The translations under genes and the position numbers were made by a program. This document shows positions 31,475 to 39,254 of a stretch of DNA of 40,290 nucleotides, piece after piece; the first letter of the stretch is position 1, and every line of letters starts with the position of its first letter. The notes beneath the pieces were generated by a model that was given only the letters and a program-made list of their open reading frames with translations, made no database searches and was not told where the DNA came from. Source of the stretch: Bacteroidia bacterium (GTDB lineage: Bacteria; Bacteroidota; Bacteroidia; DATLTG01); NCBI GenBank assembly GCA_039924845.1, contig JBDTAC010000007.1, positions 1 to 40,290 on the forward strand. The letters are read 5' to 3'.

Positions 31475-33037
31475 TTGAAAAGTACTAAACATCTTTCTGC
31501 AATGATGCGGAATTTTTGCGAAGTAGGCGGTTCGAACATTTTCAGAAAAAAATTACTTCTTCAACTGCAGCGGACGACTCTTCGGGTAAGGAAACAAATG
31601 CTCATACTCCTGCGGACGACACTTCGGGTCTGGAAATTGACTCTTCAACTCGTGGGGACGACACTTTGGGTCTGGAAATTGACTCTTCAACTCGCGGGAA
31701 CGACACTTTGGGTCTGGAAATTGACTCTGCAACTCGTGGGGACGATACTTTGGGTCTGGAAATTGACTCTCACACTCCGGCGGACGACACTTCGGGTCTG
31801 GAAATTGACTCTCACACTCTGGCGGACGATACTTCGAGTATGGAAATTGATGCTCACACCTCCGCCACTACCAGTGCCTTGTTGCTGGCCTCCACCCTGC
31901 TCTTGCGAAGATATAACAGGTCTGGATTCCATCACATGGACATACATGGAAGAACAAAAACAATACGAATTAACCAACCACTTAGGTAATGTTTTTGTAA
32001 CTTTGAGCGATAAAAAAATTCCTGTGGATACAACTTCTGGTACATCTGCTAAATATTATATCCCTTTGGTTATTACTGCTCAGGATTATTATCCTTTCGG
32101 GATGCTGATGCCAGGCAGGAATTTAAACACTACTGGTTTTAGGTTCGGCTTCAACGGAAAAGAAAAGGACAACGAGCTTTACGGAACTGGAAATGCCTAT
32201 GATTACGGCATGAGAATGTATGATGCGAGGTTAGGTAGGTTTATGAGTGTTGACCCGTTATTCAAAAAATATCCTTTTTATTCTTCATATATGTTCGCTG
32301 GCGATATGCCTATTGTTGCCGCAGATTTAGATGGAGAAGAACCTAATATAAAAGGCTCGCCATCAGTGGAAGCTTTAATTCAACCTACACAGAAAGACAT
32401 TGTTATATCGAATGCAAAGAATGAGGCCTTAGATGCTTTAACAAATGATGCGTATGAAAAAATTGGAGGAGATGCAAAATTCCCCGCTACTGCTACTACT
32501 ACTTCTGCTGTAACTAGACAAGAAGCAAAAGCGACCATAAAGAATACGATTAGCCAAAATATTGACATAAATGTTACAGTAAAAGAAACGCAGAACATGG
32601 ATGGTAGCACTTCTTATTCAACAACGACTATTATTACACCCAATAATTTTAGTGAAGCTCAGGCAAAAAATGCTCAAAAAGTACAATTTAAGGAAACAGC
32701 TATTAAAATAGCTAAAGGGGCATTTAGTTTAATAACTGATATTCCAGATCCCACTAATCTGGACGAAGGAGGTGAAATGGTTACCTTTACGTTGGGTGTT
32801 CTTAAAGTAATACCTAAGGAATCTGTTGGTGCAGCAGGTTGGGTAGCTTCCCCAGTAGCAGTAGGCAATTCTACAATTTCTGCTGCTCACGCAGGAAATT
32901 TGATAATTATAGCTGCACAATCTGAAGAATATCTAAAAGATTTATTTACTACCGGCAATTCTGGAACTAAAACACAAAAAACAGTCGATAATCCTGGACC
33001 TAAAACGGTTAGTCAACCAAATTCAACAACAAAATAA
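31475..33037 (+). CDS. Rhs core fragment with variable C-terminal tip (unit 1 toxin candidate)
   Basis: The recognisable part starts at about residue 158 (ATG at 31946, MEEQKQYELTNHLGNVFVTL). It has the Rhs core landmarks: YELTNHLGNVFVTLSDKK, YYPFGMLMPGR, FRFGFNGKEKDNELYG and YDARLGRFMSVDPL, then a break at DLDGEEP. About 230 variable residues follow, rich in Thr and Ala, with no motif I recognise (VQFKETAIKIAKGAFSLI, LGVLKVIPKESVGAAGW). The N-terminal 130 residues of the open frame are read through a 42-bp minisatellite, and their coding is doubtful. It is a truncated Rhs gene; the full Rhs body is absent. It overlaps by one base a 66-residue membrane protein gene. Confidence 0.75.
   Translation: MKSTKHLSAMMRNFCEVGGSNIFRKKLLLQLQRTTLRVRKQMLILLRTTLRVWKLTLQLVGTTLWVWKLTLQLAGTTLWVWKLTLQLVGTILWVWKLTLTLRRTTLRVWKLTLTLWRTILRVWKLMLTPPPLPVPCCWPPPCSCEDITGLDSITWTYMEEQKQYELTNHLGNVFVTLSDKKIPVDTTSGTSAKYYIPLVITAQDYYPFGMLMPGRNLNTTGFRFGFNGKEKDNELYGTGNAYDYGMRMYDARLGRFMSVDPLFKKYPFYSSYMFAGDMPIVAADLDGEEPNIKGSPSVEALIQPTQKDIVISNAKNEALDALTNDAYEKIGGDAKFPATATTTSAVTRQEAKATIKNTISQNIDINVTVKETQNMDGSTSYSTTTIITPNNFSEAQAKNAQKVQFKETAIKIAKGAFSLITDIPDPTNLDEGGEMVTFTLGVLKVIPKESVGAAGWVASPVAVGNSTISAAHAGNLIIIAAQSEEYLKDLFTTGNSGTKTQKTVDNPGPKTVSQPNSTTK
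31570..31863. repeat. 7 x 42-bp tandem repeat
   Basis: Seven full units of 42 bp, starting GCGGACGACACTTCGGGTCT, with a decayed partial unit before the first. The unit length is a multiple of three, so frames stay open on both strands. On the plus strand frames read TTLRVWKLTLQLVG or ADDTSGLEIDSSTR. On the minus strand one frame reads SQFPDPKCRPPECE-like units that end in a stop at 31553-31555. The most common change between units (TCGGGT/TTGGGT) is silent only in the minus-strand frame. No start codon was found for that frame. Confidence 0.92.
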
Positions 33038-33320: not shown

Positions 33321-33377
33321 CTTAAAAGAAAAAAAAATTGGAAATGATTTTGGAATTTGAAGATTTCAAATTACTAA

Positions 33378-33550
33378 CCGAAAACAATTCCACAAAGTGT
33401 TATTGCTAATTGGCTCAACGAGAAAAAATACCGCTCGAACAAGTTTAATTATTAGCAGGACACAGTTGAACTTCTTCTACCGAACGTTACAAACAAAATA
33501 ATCTCAACGAACAAAGAACGCTTATCAATAAATGGTTTCCGCTCGGATGA
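33378..33550 (+). pseudogene. Degenerate tyrosine recombinase 3' end, copy 1
   Basis: Reading across a missing A and two in-frame stops restores QSVIANWLNEKK, then LLAGH and TSSTERYKQNNLNEQRTLIN, nearly the same as the intact fragment at 36523-36771. The decay is clear: one base lost in the A run after NEK, CAA to TAA, and TGG to TGA. The GH and the nucleophile-position Tyr of the recombinase active site can be recognised. It ends at TGA 33548-33550. Confidence 0.8.
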
Positions 33551-33610: not shown

Positions 33611-34546
33611 ATGAATAAAATAACCTTAAATATTCCCAAAAGAGGCTCTGATAATTTTTTAGAGCCCATATATAATTTCATGAATTTTGTTTCAATTTTG
33701 AATCAAAATGAGGTGGATATTTTAGAAATAGATTTTAGCAAATGTAAATTTGCAAATCCTTTTATTATTGGTGGTGCTGCGAGTTTAGCAAATTCTCATA
33801 ATCAAAAAGGTGGTGAGAAAAGTAAAGTAATAACGAATAGCGTAAACGAAGAATTTTCAAATTATTTAGATACTATTTCGTTTTACGATGGATTCAATTA
33901 TTCGGAATGTAATTTAGATGAATTGGATAATGCGTTGAGGTCATATTATACTAAAACATACATTCCTATCGTTTGCTTTCCCACAGGAAAAACAGAACAC
34001 GAAGTCAAAATAAGAGAAAAAATTATTACTGCGATAAACAATATAATTAAGAACCAACTTGGTTTAAAACAGGAGCAATTTACAGCAATTGCTTATTTGA
34101 TTGATGAATTAACTCAAAATATAGTTGAACACTCAGGCTCTGAAAAAGGTATTTTGTTCGCACAGTTTTATCCTACAAAAAATTATATGGATGTGTGTAT
34201 CGTAGATTATGGAAAAGGTCTTTTTCAATCATATATTGATAGTGGAAAGCATCATCCTAAATCAGAAGAAGAAGCCATTAATTTTGCTGTATTTGGTAAA
34301 TCAACAAAGGATTTGGCAGAGAGCAGAGGCTTTGGCATATCTACTTCAAGAGAAATGCTTGTAACTGGTCTAAAGGGAAAGTTCTTTTTATATTCGGGAG
34401 GGACGTTTTATATACAGACTCTTGAACAACAAGAAGTGCTGAGCCTTCTTGACGAATATAATTACAAAGGCTGTTATATTGCTTTACGAATACCAGTCAT
34501 TCAACAGGATGATTTTAATTTTTACAACTTTGTTGAAGGTAAATAA
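33611..34546 (+). CDS. GHKL-type ATP-binding protein with STAS-like N-terminal part
   Basis: The 311-residue product ends in a histidine-kinase-like ATPase domain: N box IDELTQNIVEHSGSEKG (residues 164-180), G1 box VDYGKG (198-203) and G2 box ESRGFGISTS (237-246). The N-terminal ~110 residues (VDILEIDFSKCKFANPFIIG) resemble an STAS-like fold. There is no phospho-acceptor His domain, so it is closer to anti-sigma-factor-type kinases (partner switching) than to sensor kinases. A TAAATTTG box (33592-33599) precedes the ATG by 11 bp. The next gene encodes a DUF4325/STAS-like protein, a pairing I know from other genomes without a firm function. Confidence 0.82.
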   Translation: MNKITLNIPKRGSDNFLEPIYNFMNFVSILNQNEVDILEIDFSKCKFANPFIIGGAASLANSHNQKGGEKSKVITNSVNEEFSNYLDTISFYDGFNYSECNLDELDNALRSYYTKTYIPIVCFPTGKTEHEVKIREKIITAINNIIKNQLGLKQEQFTAIAYLIDELTQNIVEHSGSEKGILFAQFYPTKNYMDVCIVDYGKGLFQSYIDSGKHHPKSEEEAINFAVFGKSTKDLAESRGFGISTSREMLVTGLKGKFFLYSGGTFYIQTLEQQEVLSLLDEYNYKGCYIALRIPVIQQDDFNFYNFVEGK

Positions 34547-34561
34547 TCTAACATAATTGAT

Positions 34562-34569
34562 TAACTTTG
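34562..34569 (+). promoter_or_regulatory. Possible -7 element before the STAS-like gene
   Basis: TAACTTTG, 23 bp before the ATG at 34593. The nearest TTG/TTTG at 34529-34535 is 26-29 bp upstream, too far for a standard promoter, so it may not be real and the gene may depend on its upstream partner. Confidence 0.35.
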
Positions 34570-34592
34570 CGTTGAATAGAAAAAACGAACCT

Positions 34593-34958
34593 ATGAAAAA
34601 CACAGAAACGATAAAAATAAATGTAGCCAATGAATTTGGTAATACATTGCATTCGAGGGAAGCTGCGTTGAATCTTTTTAGTTTGCTATCAGAGATGTCA
34701 AGCAAAGAAATAGAATTTGATTTTTCAAAAGTAGAATATATTTCAAGGTCATTTGCCGACCAATTTTATAAAGAAAAAGAAAAATATCAAAACTCTTTTA
34801 GTGTACTTGTGAACATATCAAATGCGGGAGAAGAAGTTCTGTCAATGCTTCGTATTGTTGCTAAAACGCAAAACAAATCGAGTCGTAATTATGTTGTACT
34901 TCCAGTATTTAAGTATTCCGATAAAGCTAAGCTTTCCGATTATATGCTTTCGATTTAA
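34593..34958 (+). CDS. STAS-like (DUF4325) protein
   Basis: The 121-residue product has the DUF4325 signature VEYISRSFADQFYKEK (residues about 48-63) after a DFSK strand, with VLVNISNAGEEVLSMLRIV behind it. In anti-sigma-antagonist proteins a Ser at this position is phosphorylated by the partner kinase; here S51/S53 are candidates. The ATG at 34593 is chosen; an upstream TTG at 34557 is in frame but would add 12 unlikely residues. It pairs with the ATPase gene 46 bp upstream. I infer a two-protein phospho-switch; target unknown. Confidence 0.8.
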   Translation: MKNTETIKINVANEFGNTLHSREAALNLFSLLSEMSSKEIEFDFSKVEYISRSFADQFYKEKEKYQNSFSVLVNISNAGEEVLSMLRIVAKTQNKSSRNYVVLPVFKYSDKAKLSDYMLSI

Positions 34959-35099
34959 TTCTTGATTAAAATTGTTTAAAATCCATTCTCAAAAGGAATG
35001 GATTTTTTATTTTCAATACAATTTATTTTGTATTTTTATCGAAAGAAAAAATGAAAAATACTTTATCCATTTCAGATAGTTTTGTTAAAACCTATACAG
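34959..35099 (+). repeat. Rhs leader repeat, copy 1 (141 bp)
   Basis: Starts TTCTTGATTAAAATTGTTTA, contains a terminator hairpin, a short palindrome (ATACAA-TTTATT-TTGTAT at about 35018-35035) and the start codon with the first 16 codons (MKNTLSISDSFVKTYT) of the unit 2 Rhs tip. The second copy is 37521-37663, in the same orientation, with roughly 90% identity by eye. Confidence 0.88.
34979..35008 (+). terminator. Terminator after the STAS-like gene, inside the leader repeat
   Basis: Stem AATCCATTC and GAATGGATT with loop TCAAAAG, then TTTTT (34979-35008). In the second leader the pair T-A in the stem becomes A-T (AACCATTC / GAATGGTT), so the pairing is kept by paired changes. Confidence 0.82.
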
Positions 35100-35953
35100 C
35101 AGGTTTTAGGTTCGGTTTCAACGGAAAAGAAAAAGACAACGAGGTTTATGGAGCTGGGAATGCTTACACTACCGAGTTTAGAGAACTGGACACCCGTTTA
35201 GGTGGCAGGTGGTGGAGCTTAGACCCGAAAGGAAAAGCGTGGGAAAGCCCTTATGTGGGGTTTGGTGATAATCCGATACTGTATAACGATGCAAATGGAG
35301 ATATAATTTATTTTGCCAAAGGAACATCCAGCCAGTTTAAAATACAATTTGCGACAACAATTAAATATTTAAACCAACATGGTGCCGCAGGTGTTATAGC
35401 AAAATTAGAGGCCTCTAAAGTTCCTGTATATATTCAGGAAAGTACATCAATTAGTTCAGGTACAGAAGCAGAAGGAGGAGACAAATTTACTCCCGACAAG
35501 GCGAAAGGAGGAAATGGAAAGAACACTATATTATGGAATGCGCATGCTGGAGTCCTAACTACTAAAGGTCATATTTTATCAGCTGCAAGCGGTTTATCTC
35601 ACGAGGCTGATCATGCGTATGAATACGCTACACATCCAGAGAAATATACGAAAGATGCAACAACTGGCGATGCCAAATATACTACAAAAGAAGAAAGGCG
35701 AGTAATAACAGGAAGCGAACAAAATGTTGCATTAAAATTGGGTGAAATAAAAAAAGGAGAGGAGACCAGAACAGACCATTCAGGAACATATCAATATATG
35801 GCGGGACCGACAACAACCCAAAGCGAATTTGGAACTGGTGCAACAGTAAACGGCACTAATAAAGACTATGGATTATCTCAGTATATAACTCCAAATAAGG
35901 CACCTACTGCAAAATCATCTGATAAAGGATCTTCTTACGCACCCCTCAAATAA
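35051..35953 (+). CDS. Orphan Rhs tip with HExxH metallopeptidase-like domain (unit 2 toxin candidate)
   Basis: The 300-residue product consists of a 16-residue leader-encoded head (MKNTLSISDSFVKTYT), the last part of an Rhs core (FRFGFNGKEKDNEVYG, LDTRLGGRWWSLDPKG, NPILYNDANGD; residues 19-84) and a ~215-residue variable domain. That domain has HEADHAYEY (HExxH at residues 184-188) and, about 30 residues later, TKEERRVITGSEQNVALKLG, a layout similar to M91/NleD-type effector peptidases, where a later Glu completes the zinc site. No signal sequence or Rhs shell is present, so delivery is unclear. A lipoprotein gene starts 4 bp behind the stop. Confidence 0.78.
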   Translation: MKNTLSISDSFVKTYTAGFRFGFNGKEKDNEVYGAGNAYTTEFRELDTRLGGRWWSLDPKGKAWESPYVGFGDNPILYNDANGDIIYFAKGTSSQFKIQFATTIKYLNQHGAAGVIAKLEASKVPVYIQESTSISSGTEAEGGDKFTPDKAKGGNGKNTILWNAHAGVLTTKGHILSAASGLSHEADHAYEYATHPEKYTKDATTGDAKYTTKEERRVITGSEQNVALKLGEIKKGEETRTDHSGTYQYMAGPTTTQSEFGTGATVNGTNKDYGLSQYITPNKAPTAKSSDKGSSYAPLK

Positions 35954-36546: not shown

Positions 36547-36771
36547 TTACCCGAAAAGATTATTTATAAGCCGCTTTTTCCTGATAGAAATTTAAACACC
36601 AAAACGATTCGGCAAAGTGTTATCGCCAACTGGCTCAACGAGAAAAAAATACCGCTCGAACAAGTTCAATTATTGGCAGGTCATCGTTGGACTTCTTCTA
36701 CCGAACGATACAAACAAAATAATCTCAACGAACAAAGAACGCTTATCAATAAATGGTTTCCGTTGGATTAA
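36523..36771 (+). pseudogene. Tyrosine recombinase 3' end, copy 2 (N-terminally truncated)
   Basis: The open frame from a TTG encodes 82 residues ending IRQSVIANWLNEKKIPLEQV, then QLLAGHRWTSSTERYKQNNL and so on to WFPLD. The GHRWTSSTERY segment matches the last His and the nucleophile Tyr of the recombinase active site, but the DNA-binding domain and the first catalytic Arg are absent, so it cannot be active alone. It may be a piece left by insertion, or the complete recombinase may be elsewhere. Confidence 0.78.
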
Positions 36772-36829: not shown

Positions 36830-37351
36830 GTGGCTAAAAAAGCAAGAAAAAAAGAAGTAAATATTGAAATTGATAAATTGACTAACTCGATCGAAAATGT
36901 ACTCAGTGGGGATGTTTTCGATACGGAGTTTCACAAAGTATCAAAGAGCGATATTAAAAAGAAAGACTGGCTTTTTGATTGGCATTTGGAACTTAAAAAT
37001 AAAAACAGGCAGGTTTATAAAATGACGATTAAAAATAATGCGAAAATTATTCAAGGCTTAATATCTTTTTCTGTGGATGAGAATTTTATTTTTATAAATC
37101 TTGTTGAAAACGCCAAATTTAACAGAGGAAAAAATAAAATTTATGTAGGTGTTGCAGGAAATATGTTTGCCTTTGCCTGTAAGGTATCTAAGGAAAAGGG
37201 ATTTGGTGGAATCGTTAGTTTCGTTGCAAAAACATTGTTGATTAATCATTACTATAAAACATTAGGAGCTACAACAATTATCGGACAAAGAATGATTATT
37301 GAAGGAGAAGCGACACATAATTTAATAAACCAATATTTTAAAAATAAATAA
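36830..37351 (+). CDS. GNAT-like protein of unknown function (cargo of unit 2)
   Basis: The 173-residue product starts at a GTG (MAKKARKKEVNIEIDKLTNS). Residues 100-150 read KNKIYVGVAGNMFAFACKVS, then GFGGIVSFVAKTLLINHYYK and TLGA, which is the form of the acetyl-CoA-binding loop and C-terminal part of GNAT acetyltransferases (small residue, helix, gly-phe strand, hydrophobic helix, Tyr, G). The N-terminal ~50 residues have a conserved-looking SGDVFDTE segment. I know similar proteins from mobile regions of several phyla. The next gene, 2 bp later, encodes a 52-residue protein, so a pair is likely. Whether it is a toxin-antitoxin pair is not known. Confidence 0.75.
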   Translation: MAKKARKKEVNIEIDKLTNSIENVLSGDVFDTEFHKVSKSDIKKKDWLFDWHLELKNKNRQVYKMTIKNNAKIIQGLISFSVDENFIFINLVENAKFNRGKNKIYVGVAGNMFAFACKVSKEKGFGGIVSFVAKTLLINHYYKTLGATTIIGQRMIIEGEATHNLINQYFKNK

Positions 37352-37520: not shown

Positions 37521-37663
37521 TTCTTGATTAAAATTGTTTAAAAAACCATTCAAAAAAAGAATGGTTTTTTTATTTTTTATACAATTTATTTTGTATTTTT
37601 ATCGAAAGAGAAAAATGAAAAATAATCTTTCCATTTCAGATAGTTTTGTTAAAACCTATACAG
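37521..37663 (+). repeat. Rhs leader repeat, copy 2 (143 bp)
   Basis: Second copy of the leader at 34959-35099 with its own terminator, ATACAA...TTGTAT palindrome, ATG and 16 codons (MKNNLSISDSFVKTYT). Similarity stops at CCTATACAG, exactly where copy 1 goes into the Rhs core, which marks the recombination junction. Confidence 0.88.
37542..37572 (+). terminator. Terminator inside leader copy 2
   Basis: Stem AAAACCATTC (37542-37551) and GAATGGTTTT (37559-37568) with an A7 loop, followed by a T run. It ends the GNAT-like/52-residue transcript. The stem covaries with that of leader copy 1. Confidence 0.82.
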
Positions 37664-38143
37664 GAAAATTCAGATTTCCGTTCCACTGTTACTAAAGGAA
37701 ATAGTGGATTATGGACTGCTAGCCCTCCTTCTAATTATATTCCTTATCCTCATGAATTTGCACATTTGCTTGGCTTGGATGATGGTTATTTCGATGTGTT
37801 TTATTCAACAGACGCAATATTTGACGCTGACAAGATACAGGGACAGACAAAAGAAAATTACAATAAAAATGATGTTGTTGTGGATCCAAACGGTATAGTA
37901 ACACAAGATGATGTAGATGCTTTAGGAGATTATATAATGAAACAATACACCAACCAGCCTACCTCTAATAACAAAACATGGACTTGAAAAATAGAAGTAC
38001 CTAGCATGACTTTATGAAAAGGAACGACAGTAGAGGAAAGATTAAAAATGCAAGGACGACCAGTTAAAATGGACGAAAACACAAAACACACTCCGGCTAA
38101 CAATAAAGGAAAAGAAAGCCATCAGACTGTTAGAAATTTATAA
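37615..38143 (+). pseudogene. Metzincin-like Rhs tip fused out of frame to leader 2 (unit 3 toxin remnant)
   Basis: The leader start codon (37615) reads MKNNLSISDSFVKTYT and then meets a stop after ten more codons. The next frame (from about 37664) gives ENSDFRSTVTKGNSGLWTAS and NYIPYPHEFAHLLGLDDGY, i.e. HExxHxxGxxD as in metzincin zinc peptidases. The frame has TGA at 37985-37987 and 38015-38017, and ends NKGKESHQTVRNL at the TAA at 38141-38143. No Rhs core lies between leader and tip. It is therefore a broken toxin end; an internal TTG at 37646 would give a 113-residue piece. Confidence 0.72.
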
Positions 38144-38211: not shown

Positions 38212-38703
38212 ATGAAAAAGATCATATTTTTCTTTATAGCTTCAATAAGCATTATTTCTTGCACAGAAAGACAGACAAGCCTCTTTGACAATAAAGACAA
38301 CAATAAATACGGTTTACAATTCGAATTATTCGGTGATAATTGTGATAAAAAAAGAATTACTATTTACTTTACCCCCGACATTTTGGAAGACACACTAATC
38401 GTTGATAAATACTATAATTCTCATAGCGATTCTTGTGATTCACGAAGAGTGAGCATTTCTAAAATTGACCAAGATTCGCTGTACACTTTTTTTAAAGATG
38501 CTATGAATAAGTTTAAAATAAACGGAGAAAGACCAAATAAAAAAATAAGCATGGCAATTAAACTAACAATTTTTTCAACAGACAAGACAATATCAACAAG
38601 TTATTTAAATCTTAAAGATCTTAATAAGGATAATCCTGACATTACACAACTTGTTAATTTTTTAAATAGAAGAATTGGCAGGAAGTCTCAAATTAATTAC
38701 TAG
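38212..38703 (+). CDS. Lipoprotein, candidate immunity protein of unit 3 (first of two paralogs)
   Basis: The 163-residue product starts MKKIIFFFIASISIISC with Cys17 as the lipobox Cys. Its body has conserved positions shared with the next gene: LQFELFGDNCD, EDTLIV, SCDS, SISKIDQDSLYTFFKDAM, and VNFLNRRIGRKSQINY at the end. It follows the broken metzincin tip by 68 bp, with no promoter that I can support. No known family. Confidence 0.65.
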   Translation: MKKIIFFFIASISIISCTERQTSLFDNKDNNKYGLQFELFGDNCDKKRITIYFTPDILEDTLIVDKYYNSHSDSCDSRRVSISKIDQDSLYTFFKDAMNKFKINGERPNKKISMAIKLTIFSTDKTISTSYLNLKDLNKDNPDITQLVNFLNRRIGRKSQINY

Positions 38704-38741
38704 TTTGAACAGTGTCAAAATTTGGTCATGCGCTTTTTTTG

Positions 38742-38763
38742 TTTCAAAAAATAATTTTTCAAA
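38742..38763. repeat. AT palindrome between the two paralogous lipoprotein genes
   Basis: TTTCAAAAAATAATTTTTC and flanks, ending at the A of the second gene's ATG (38763). The short spacer 38704-38741 contains AGTGTCAAAATTTGGTC, a weak echo of the tail motif. Confidence 0.55.
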
Positions 38764-39254
38764 TGAAAAAGATTATATTCTTCTTTATAGCTTCAATAAG
38801 CATTATTTCTTGCACAGAACAGCAAACAAATCGCTTTGATGCTAATGATAGTAATAAATCCTGTTTAAAATTTGAGCTATTCGGTGATGGTTGTGATAAT
38901 AGGTTTACTATTCTTTTGAACGTTCCGACGTCAGAGGATACTCTAATCATTTATAAATGCAGTAATGCTTATACCAATTCTTGTGATTCAAATAAAATAA
39001 GCATTACTAAGATTGACCAAGATTCGCTATACGCTTATTTTAAAGATGCTGTGAATAAATTTAAAATAAACAAACTGGGTCAAAATAAAACAGGGATAGC
39101 TATTAGGCTATCAGTCTTTTCAAAAGACAAGTCAATATCAATAAGTTATTTAAGCCTTGAACAACATCTTCGTAAGAATAATTCTGACGAGATCACACAG
39201 ATCGTTAATTTTTTAAATAGAAGGATTGACAGGAAATTTCAAATTAATTATTAG
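38763..39254 (+). CDS. Lipoprotein, candidate immunity protein of unit 3 (second paralog)
   Basis: The 163-residue product is a clear paralog of the preceding gene: the same signal (MKKIIFFFIASISIISC), then LKFELFGDGCD, EDTLII, SCDS, SITKIDQDSLYAYFKDAV and VNFLNRRIDRKFQINY. The signal region is almost identical at the DNA level while the middle has diverged, so the duplication is followed by sequence change. The ATG at 38763 is chosen over a TTG/other start at 38712, which would add a non-signal segment. Duplicated, diverged immunity genes behind one toxin end are common in polymorphic-toxin loci. Confidence 0.65.
   Translation: MKKIIFFFIASISIISCTEQQTNRFDANDSNKSCLKFELFGDGCDNRFTILLNVPTSEDTLIIYKCSNAYTNSCDSNKISITKIDQDSLYAYFKDAVNKFKINKLGQNKTGIAIRLSVFSKDKSISISYLSLEQHLRKNNSDEITQIVNFLNRRIDRKFQINY

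Follow-up and report, generated by a model that had tools for sequence, protein, structure and literature searches.

Within the 40,290-nucleotide stretch of DNA analyzed here (the window), two adjacent forward-strand genes at 33611-34958 encode an ATPase and a STAS protein that are placed by sequence comparison in a distinct third branch of the CapK/CapS and VapK/VapS/VapC kinase-STAS superfamily. Our preferred reading, to which we assign a probability of roughly 0.55, is that the two proteins form an ATP-driven switch belonging to a branch of this superfamily marked by an arginine (hereafter the arginine branch), that the pair travels as mobile cargo with no target encoded next to it, and that switching probably does not proceed by canonical serine phosphorylation.

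Both open reading frames of the pair are intact. The first (33611-34546) encodes P0001, a kinase-like STAS-GHKL ATPase of 311 amino acids, and the second (34557-34958) encodes the stand-alone STAS protein P0002, for which the ATG at 34593 is the likelier start and would yield a product of 121 amino acids (34593-34958). An intrinsic terminator at 34978-35006 on the same strand, composed of a 12-bp stem and a U tract with a folding z of -2.58, closes the pair. Relative to their closest homologues (G660; 72% amino acid identity for the ATPase and 64% for the STAS protein), the two genes have dN/dS values of approximately 0.10 and 0.26, respectively, and the pair has kept these low values while the integrase tail upstream of it has gained three stops. 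The pair thus consists of genuine genes under purifying selection, with 64 homologous pairs recovered, in agreement with the original prediction of a two-gene unit in which an anti-sigma-kinase-like ATPase with its own N-terminal STAS domain stands beside a separate STAS protein. The promoter boxes also proposed for the pair did not hold up: 12 boxes were found versus 9.4 ± 3.2 by chance, and neither sigma-70 nor Bacteroidota-type promoter scans exceeded chance.

The AF2 model of P0001 (pLDDT 91.8, pTM 0.91) comprises an N-terminal STAS-like domain of approximately 110 residues followed by a GHKL domain spanning residues 117-295. Foldseek retrieved GyrB/ParE and SpoIIAB folds, with SpoIIAB as the best whole-domain match (TMt 0.72), and the match between P0001 and phrog_3364 is full-length (E=7e-34). 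The ATP site is intact, with conserved N-box residues E166/N170/H174, a D199-x-G201 motif, and G240/G242; the three N-box residues together with G201 and G240 are invariant in 64/64 pairs, and K233 and R239 are invariant within the arginine branch. Pairwise alignment of P0001 to the kinase of a Deinococcus plasmid operon, which served as our kinase-STAS-PIN (K-S-PIN) reference, gave an E-value of 2e-9. In an alignment within the window family alone, F47 occupies the column corresponding best to the single-stranded DNA (ssDNA)-stacking aromatic residue of CapK/VapK, and this column is aromatic in 34 of the 38 arginine-branch kinases and not aromatic in the other four. An HTH domain is absent from both P0001 and P0002. 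A PADLOC match of P0001 to the DISARM protein DrmA was rejected, the match covering only the GHKL part (residues 101-254 of a 1750-position model). The GHKL domains of several kinases of the family match the first 275 positions (about 100-275) of the DrmA model PDLC02567, with E-values down to 3e-11, suggesting that this model contains a GHKL-like region.

P0002 is also predicted to adopt a STAS fold, both in its AF2 model (pLDDT 87.8) and by Foldseek, with helix 2 starting at R52 and a C-terminal helix formed by residues 111-120. The protein matches DUF4325 (PF14213) weakly, below the gathering cut-off, and this Pfam family, like phrog_3364, is of unknown function; a second candidate identity, PDC-M64C (E=0.011), did not recur in relatives and was rejected. 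A profile built from 31 STAS partners, P0002 included, matches the solved structure of VapS (PDB 9Z7O, 9z7o_A) at 2.8e-12. Between the DF motif and helix 2 the alignment of P0002 to VapS is gapless (DFSNVKMFA-S48-PFF in VapS versus DFSKVEYIS-R52-SFA in P0002), and the same column is occupied by serine in the SpoIIAA-like protein TM1442 and is again assigned to R52 by the DUF4325 alignment. R52 is thus predicted to occupy the phospho-acceptor column held by S48 in VapS. R52, R22, and D43 are each present in 38/38 members of the arginine branch, and the R52 column is Ser or Thr in 10/10 PIN-linked pairs. The original prediction that the STAS protein carries serine in the usual place is therefore wrong by sequence alignment: the acceptor column holds Arg52, flanked by Ser51 and Ser53.

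These flanking serines form the basis of an alternative in which the acceptor of a canonical partner switch has merely shifted, P0001 phosphorylating Ser53 or Ser51 of P0002 as VapK does VapS, with R52 only shaping the interface and the released target being a toxin-like host protein encoded elsewhere. Position 51 is Ser or Thr in 38/38 members of the branch and position 53 is Ser in 35/38, the catalytic residues of the kinase are conserved, and its characterized relatives are kinases (PMC13373217). However, the gapless alignments to VapS, TM1442, and DUF4325 put R52, rather than either neighbour, at the acceptor column. Ser51 lies at the helix N-cap, where TM1442 has Asp, and its conservation may thus be structural, while Ser53 is replaced by Ala or Gly in three of the 38 proteins. 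We regard a shifted acceptor as possible, although doubtful.

To place the window pair among its relatives, homologues were collected from whole genomes, GTDB contigs, IMG/VR, and phage and plasmid records, and duplicates were removed to leave 64 unique pairs. Across these pairs the distances among kinases and among STAS proteins co-vary (Mantel r=0.71, with 0/2000 permutations as high), establishing by comparison that the two genes belong together. Single-gene ATPase-STAS fusions also exist (L009, 428 amino acids; L153, 429 amino acids), and PHROG family 5816 matches both halves; a search of IMG/VR for natural fusions returned none. P0001 finds phage records by tblastn, while P0002 alone found none. 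In a maximum-likelihood tree built from the kinase sequences alone, and so without the column that defines the R52 trait, a single branch with support of 98/94 separates the 38 arginine-type pairs from the rest; shuffling the trait over this tree gave an expectation of 20.5 changes. The branch is represented in Bacteroidota, Methanobacteriota, Thermoplasmatota, and Pacearchaeota as well as in their viruses, and appears old or mobile enough to be common to all of these. In the literature searched, we found no experiments on members of this branch.

The arginine branch also differs from its relatives in gene content. Using a PIN HMM on neighbouring genes, a PIN gene was found beside 0/38 arginine-type pairs versus 10/24 Ser/Thr-type pairs (Fisher 2e-5). 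The K-S-PIN gene order is seen in part of the collected set (L018-L020, L024, L027, L030, L130, L154, L158, and L164). Neither a wHTH nor a clear PIN gene was found in the arginine branch, with psiM100 as a possible exception. In the archaeal prophage psiM100, ORFD, a 492-amino acid protein with a PIN-like N-terminus, is encoded 12 nt downstream of the arginine-type pair; as a PIN effector, ORFD has a Pfam PIN match of only E=0.15 and no PDB match, and counting it as PIN changes the Fisher value to 1.5e-4. The psiM100 fragment IFa (L034 3677-6298), which holds this pair and the 492-amino acid protein, is a possible archaeal K-S-PIN cassette. A tblastn search of plasmids and phages with VapS recovered only the Deinococcus plasmid operon and one short unannotated phage contig.

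Immediately 5' of the window pair lies the decayed 3' tail of a gene encoding a tyrosine recombinase, Int2 (33368-33550, forward strand), which is 91% identical over 162 nt to nucleotides 688-849 of intact int2 and contains three in-frame stops. The intact gene, the second of two tandem recombinases, is found in the same genome on contig C68 (C68:43478-44335), where another ATPase-STAS pair, of the Ser type, directly follows it; a left int2 copy on this contig ends exactly at int2 nucleotide 767. In a further genome (G419), an arginine-type pair whose ATPase is 56% identical to that of the window likewise follows this integrase. Elements of this family (L068-L074 and L102-L129) occur in Bacteroidota and carry primase/AAA genes and two tandem tyrosine recombinases, with a cargo slot directly behind the second recombinase and RHS toxin tips often following. 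The same slot in other members of the family holds PemK-like, Fic, ORF6N, DUF1016/YhcG, or IS genes, or directly contains an RHS tip. The window contains a second int2 tail on the forward strand (36565-36771; 95% identity over 207 nt to int2 nucleotides 652-858), after which the same slot is occupied by a 173-amino acid open reading frame (36830-37351) with no Pfam, NCBIfam, or PADLOC match. Together with two in L047 (3221-3328 and 11474-11644), this makes four partial int2 3' ends starting at int2 nucleotides 652-688. In all but one case a cargo gene comes next, with an RHS-tip unit behind it. The arrangement looks as though cassettes had accumulated at an attachment site within the integrase gene.

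The next gene 3' of the window pair, after the terminator, is a forward-strand RHS-core tip (35051-35953) with weak similarity to Peptidase_M91, considered here as context only. The sequence at this boundary (34968-35112) is repeated at 37531-37676. In-frame tandem repeats with periods of 42 and 21 nt are present at the 5' ends of RHS-tip open reading frames in the window (31508-31850) and in L047 (591-821), and two tandem lipoprotein-like genes that are approximately 80% identical (38212-38703 and 38712-39254) lie downstream of an RHS-tip unit. The placement of the pair between toxin units, to which the original prediction had attached significance, is real in the window and is explained by the slot for cargo that lies behind an integrase gene in elements that also bear RHS tips.

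Pairs of this kind are also found outside the int2 elements. In Bacteroidales prophages, arginine-type pairs stand beside an integrase or a cI-like repressor; in Francisella phage KIRK, a gene for a hypothetical protein of 293 amino acids and a DUF4325 gene (Fhv_0046/0047) lie beside cI; and in psiM100 the pair is part of an inserted fragment. In Streptococcus prophages, the slot between lysin and paratox holds a Ser-type sister pair or an Abi_2 gene (E=3e-39), or is empty, an alternation that is seen among the closely similar Streptococcus agalactiae prophages L189, L190, L191, and L192. Many chromosomal arginine-type copies stand alone among housekeeping genes. The pair is therefore accessory cargo of phages and integrase elements, as originally proposed, with the evidence from position coming from arginine-type copies and that from presence or absence between near relatives coming from the sister type.

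This mode of carriage would also suit a regulator of the lifestyle of the element or prophage itself, one that detects DNA damage and tunes excision, induction, or the expression of nearby cargo and has no part in host defence. Such a role is consistent with where the pairs lie, next to an integrase or cI-like repressor gene in prophages and immediately after int2 in elements. Nevertheless, neither protein contains an HTH, many copies stand alone in chromosomes with no integrase, and the Streptococcus sister pair sits in the lysogenic-conversion slot by paratox, where Abi_2 can take its place and where the phage can also do without it. We consider lifestyle regulation unlikely. Sigma-factor regulation by an anti-sigma kinase with its anti-anti-sigma factor, as in SpoIIAB/SpoIIAA or RsbW/RsbV, is less probable still: the GHKL and STAS folds of the window pair are common to these systems and match SpoIIAB and SpoIIAA, yet the window kinase has a STAS domain of its own, the acceptor serine is an arginine, and genes for a sigma factor, a PP2C phosphatase, or Rsb proteins were not seen beside the pairs examined. 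In the window, as first noted, no sigma factor, phosphatase, or sensor adjoins the pair, and the true RsbW-like pairs recovered (L021, L023, L026, and L031) are short kinases that lack the N-terminal STAS domain and stand by standard STAS genes. That the genes provide immunity to, or regulation of, the RHS toxin units between which they lie in the window is highly improbable, given that the pair has its own terminator and that, apart from the window, C68, and G419, no RHS tip was seen beside the other pairs examined.

Under our preferred reading, an arginine-branch switch, the groove separating the STAS and GHKL domains of the ATPase would serve to sense infection or DNA damage, and sensing would change the hold of the ATPase on the STAS protein. 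P0002, through its conserved C-terminal helix, would hold or block a target not encoded beside the pair, presumably either a protein of the host or its partner ATPase, and release or capture of this target would then stress, arrest, or protect the cell. The step linking ATP to the STAS protein may involve binding or hydrolysis of ATP, R52 (possibly together with R22) lying near the gamma-phosphate, or else phosphorylation of a flanking serine; phosphorylation of serine at the canonical site is improbable because the acceptor column is Arg. More tentatively, the branch could represent a third mode of GHKL-STAS switching that dispenses with Ser/Thr phosphorylation, in which the invariant arginine lies at the acceptor place by the gamma-phosphate of ATP and serves either as a trans arginine finger, turning the kinase into an ATP-hydrolysis timer, or as the phospho-acceptor itself, making the ATPase an arginine-phosphorylating GHKL kinase. 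We hold this extension to be conceivable but doubtful.

Several points count against the preferred reading, among them the four arginine-branch kinases with no aromatic residue in the F47 column. No effector gene accompanies the branch, many of whose copies have the solitary housekeeping surroundings described above. A small matched PADLOC survey gave no clear difference that would indicate enrichment in defence islands, with known defence genes both around nine arginine-type loci and in nine control stretches, one of which held a CRISPR locus. A role as a defence or stress switch is nonetheless plausible, since VapKSC and CapKS act in phage defence or in regulating immunity and the sister pair is exchanged for Abi_2; what does not survive from the original wording is "unknown type", which is now too strong as the superfamily was described in 2026. 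Similarly, the proposal of a partner-switching module stands insofar as the genes form a GHKL ATPase/STAS pair of the kinase-STAS superfamily, but not in its reliance on the usual serine. With an arginine at the phosphosite and no attached toxin gene, the arginine branch would have to switch, or find its target, differently. This opens to test both GHKL-STAS switching without serine phosphorylation and the host target of an effector-less pair.

The closest known systems, CapK/CapS and VapK/VapS/VapC, were described in EMBO J in June 2026 (PMC13373217). CapK is activated by ssDNA and phosphorylates the STAS serine S54 of CapS, releasing this repressor, and CapK and CapS regulate Bub, CBASS, and further immune operons in response to DNA damage (PMC13373217). 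In VapKSC, the STAS antitoxin VapS holds the PIN RNase VapC, which is released by the S48E substitution; the S48 position is Ser/Thr with absolute conservation, and the operon provides approximately 2-log protection against one phage, Bas42 (PMC13373217). Activation by ssDNA depends on an aromatic residue in the STAS domain of the kinase, F54 in VapK and W68 in CapK (PMC13373217). The window pair resembles CapK and CapS as a two-gene kinase and STAS unit with an internal STAS domain next to the GHKL domain of the kinase, but its kinase has no HTH, P0002 has no wHTH and consists of a STAS domain with a 10-residue helix, and downstream of the pair there is a terminator followed by RHS-tip genes rather than an immune operon. 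It shares with VapKSC a STAS-GHKL kinase and a STAS protein with a short C-terminal region that is homologous to VapS by profile, a conserved ATP site, the C-terminal helix on the STAS protein, and sporadic occurrence; it differs in having no PIN third gene, in the Arg rather than Ser/Thr at the acceptor column, in kinases that form a separate clade, and in the additional invariant residues R22 and D43. Taken together, the known kinase-STAS switch is a DNA-damage-activated serine kinase whose substrate is a STAS protein serving as repressor or antitoxin. The arginine branch departs from it as a separate and widespread lineage, spread by temperate phages and integrase elements of Bacteroidota and archaea, in which the ATP site is kept but the residue open to phosphorylation is gone and an effector gene is usually missing as well.
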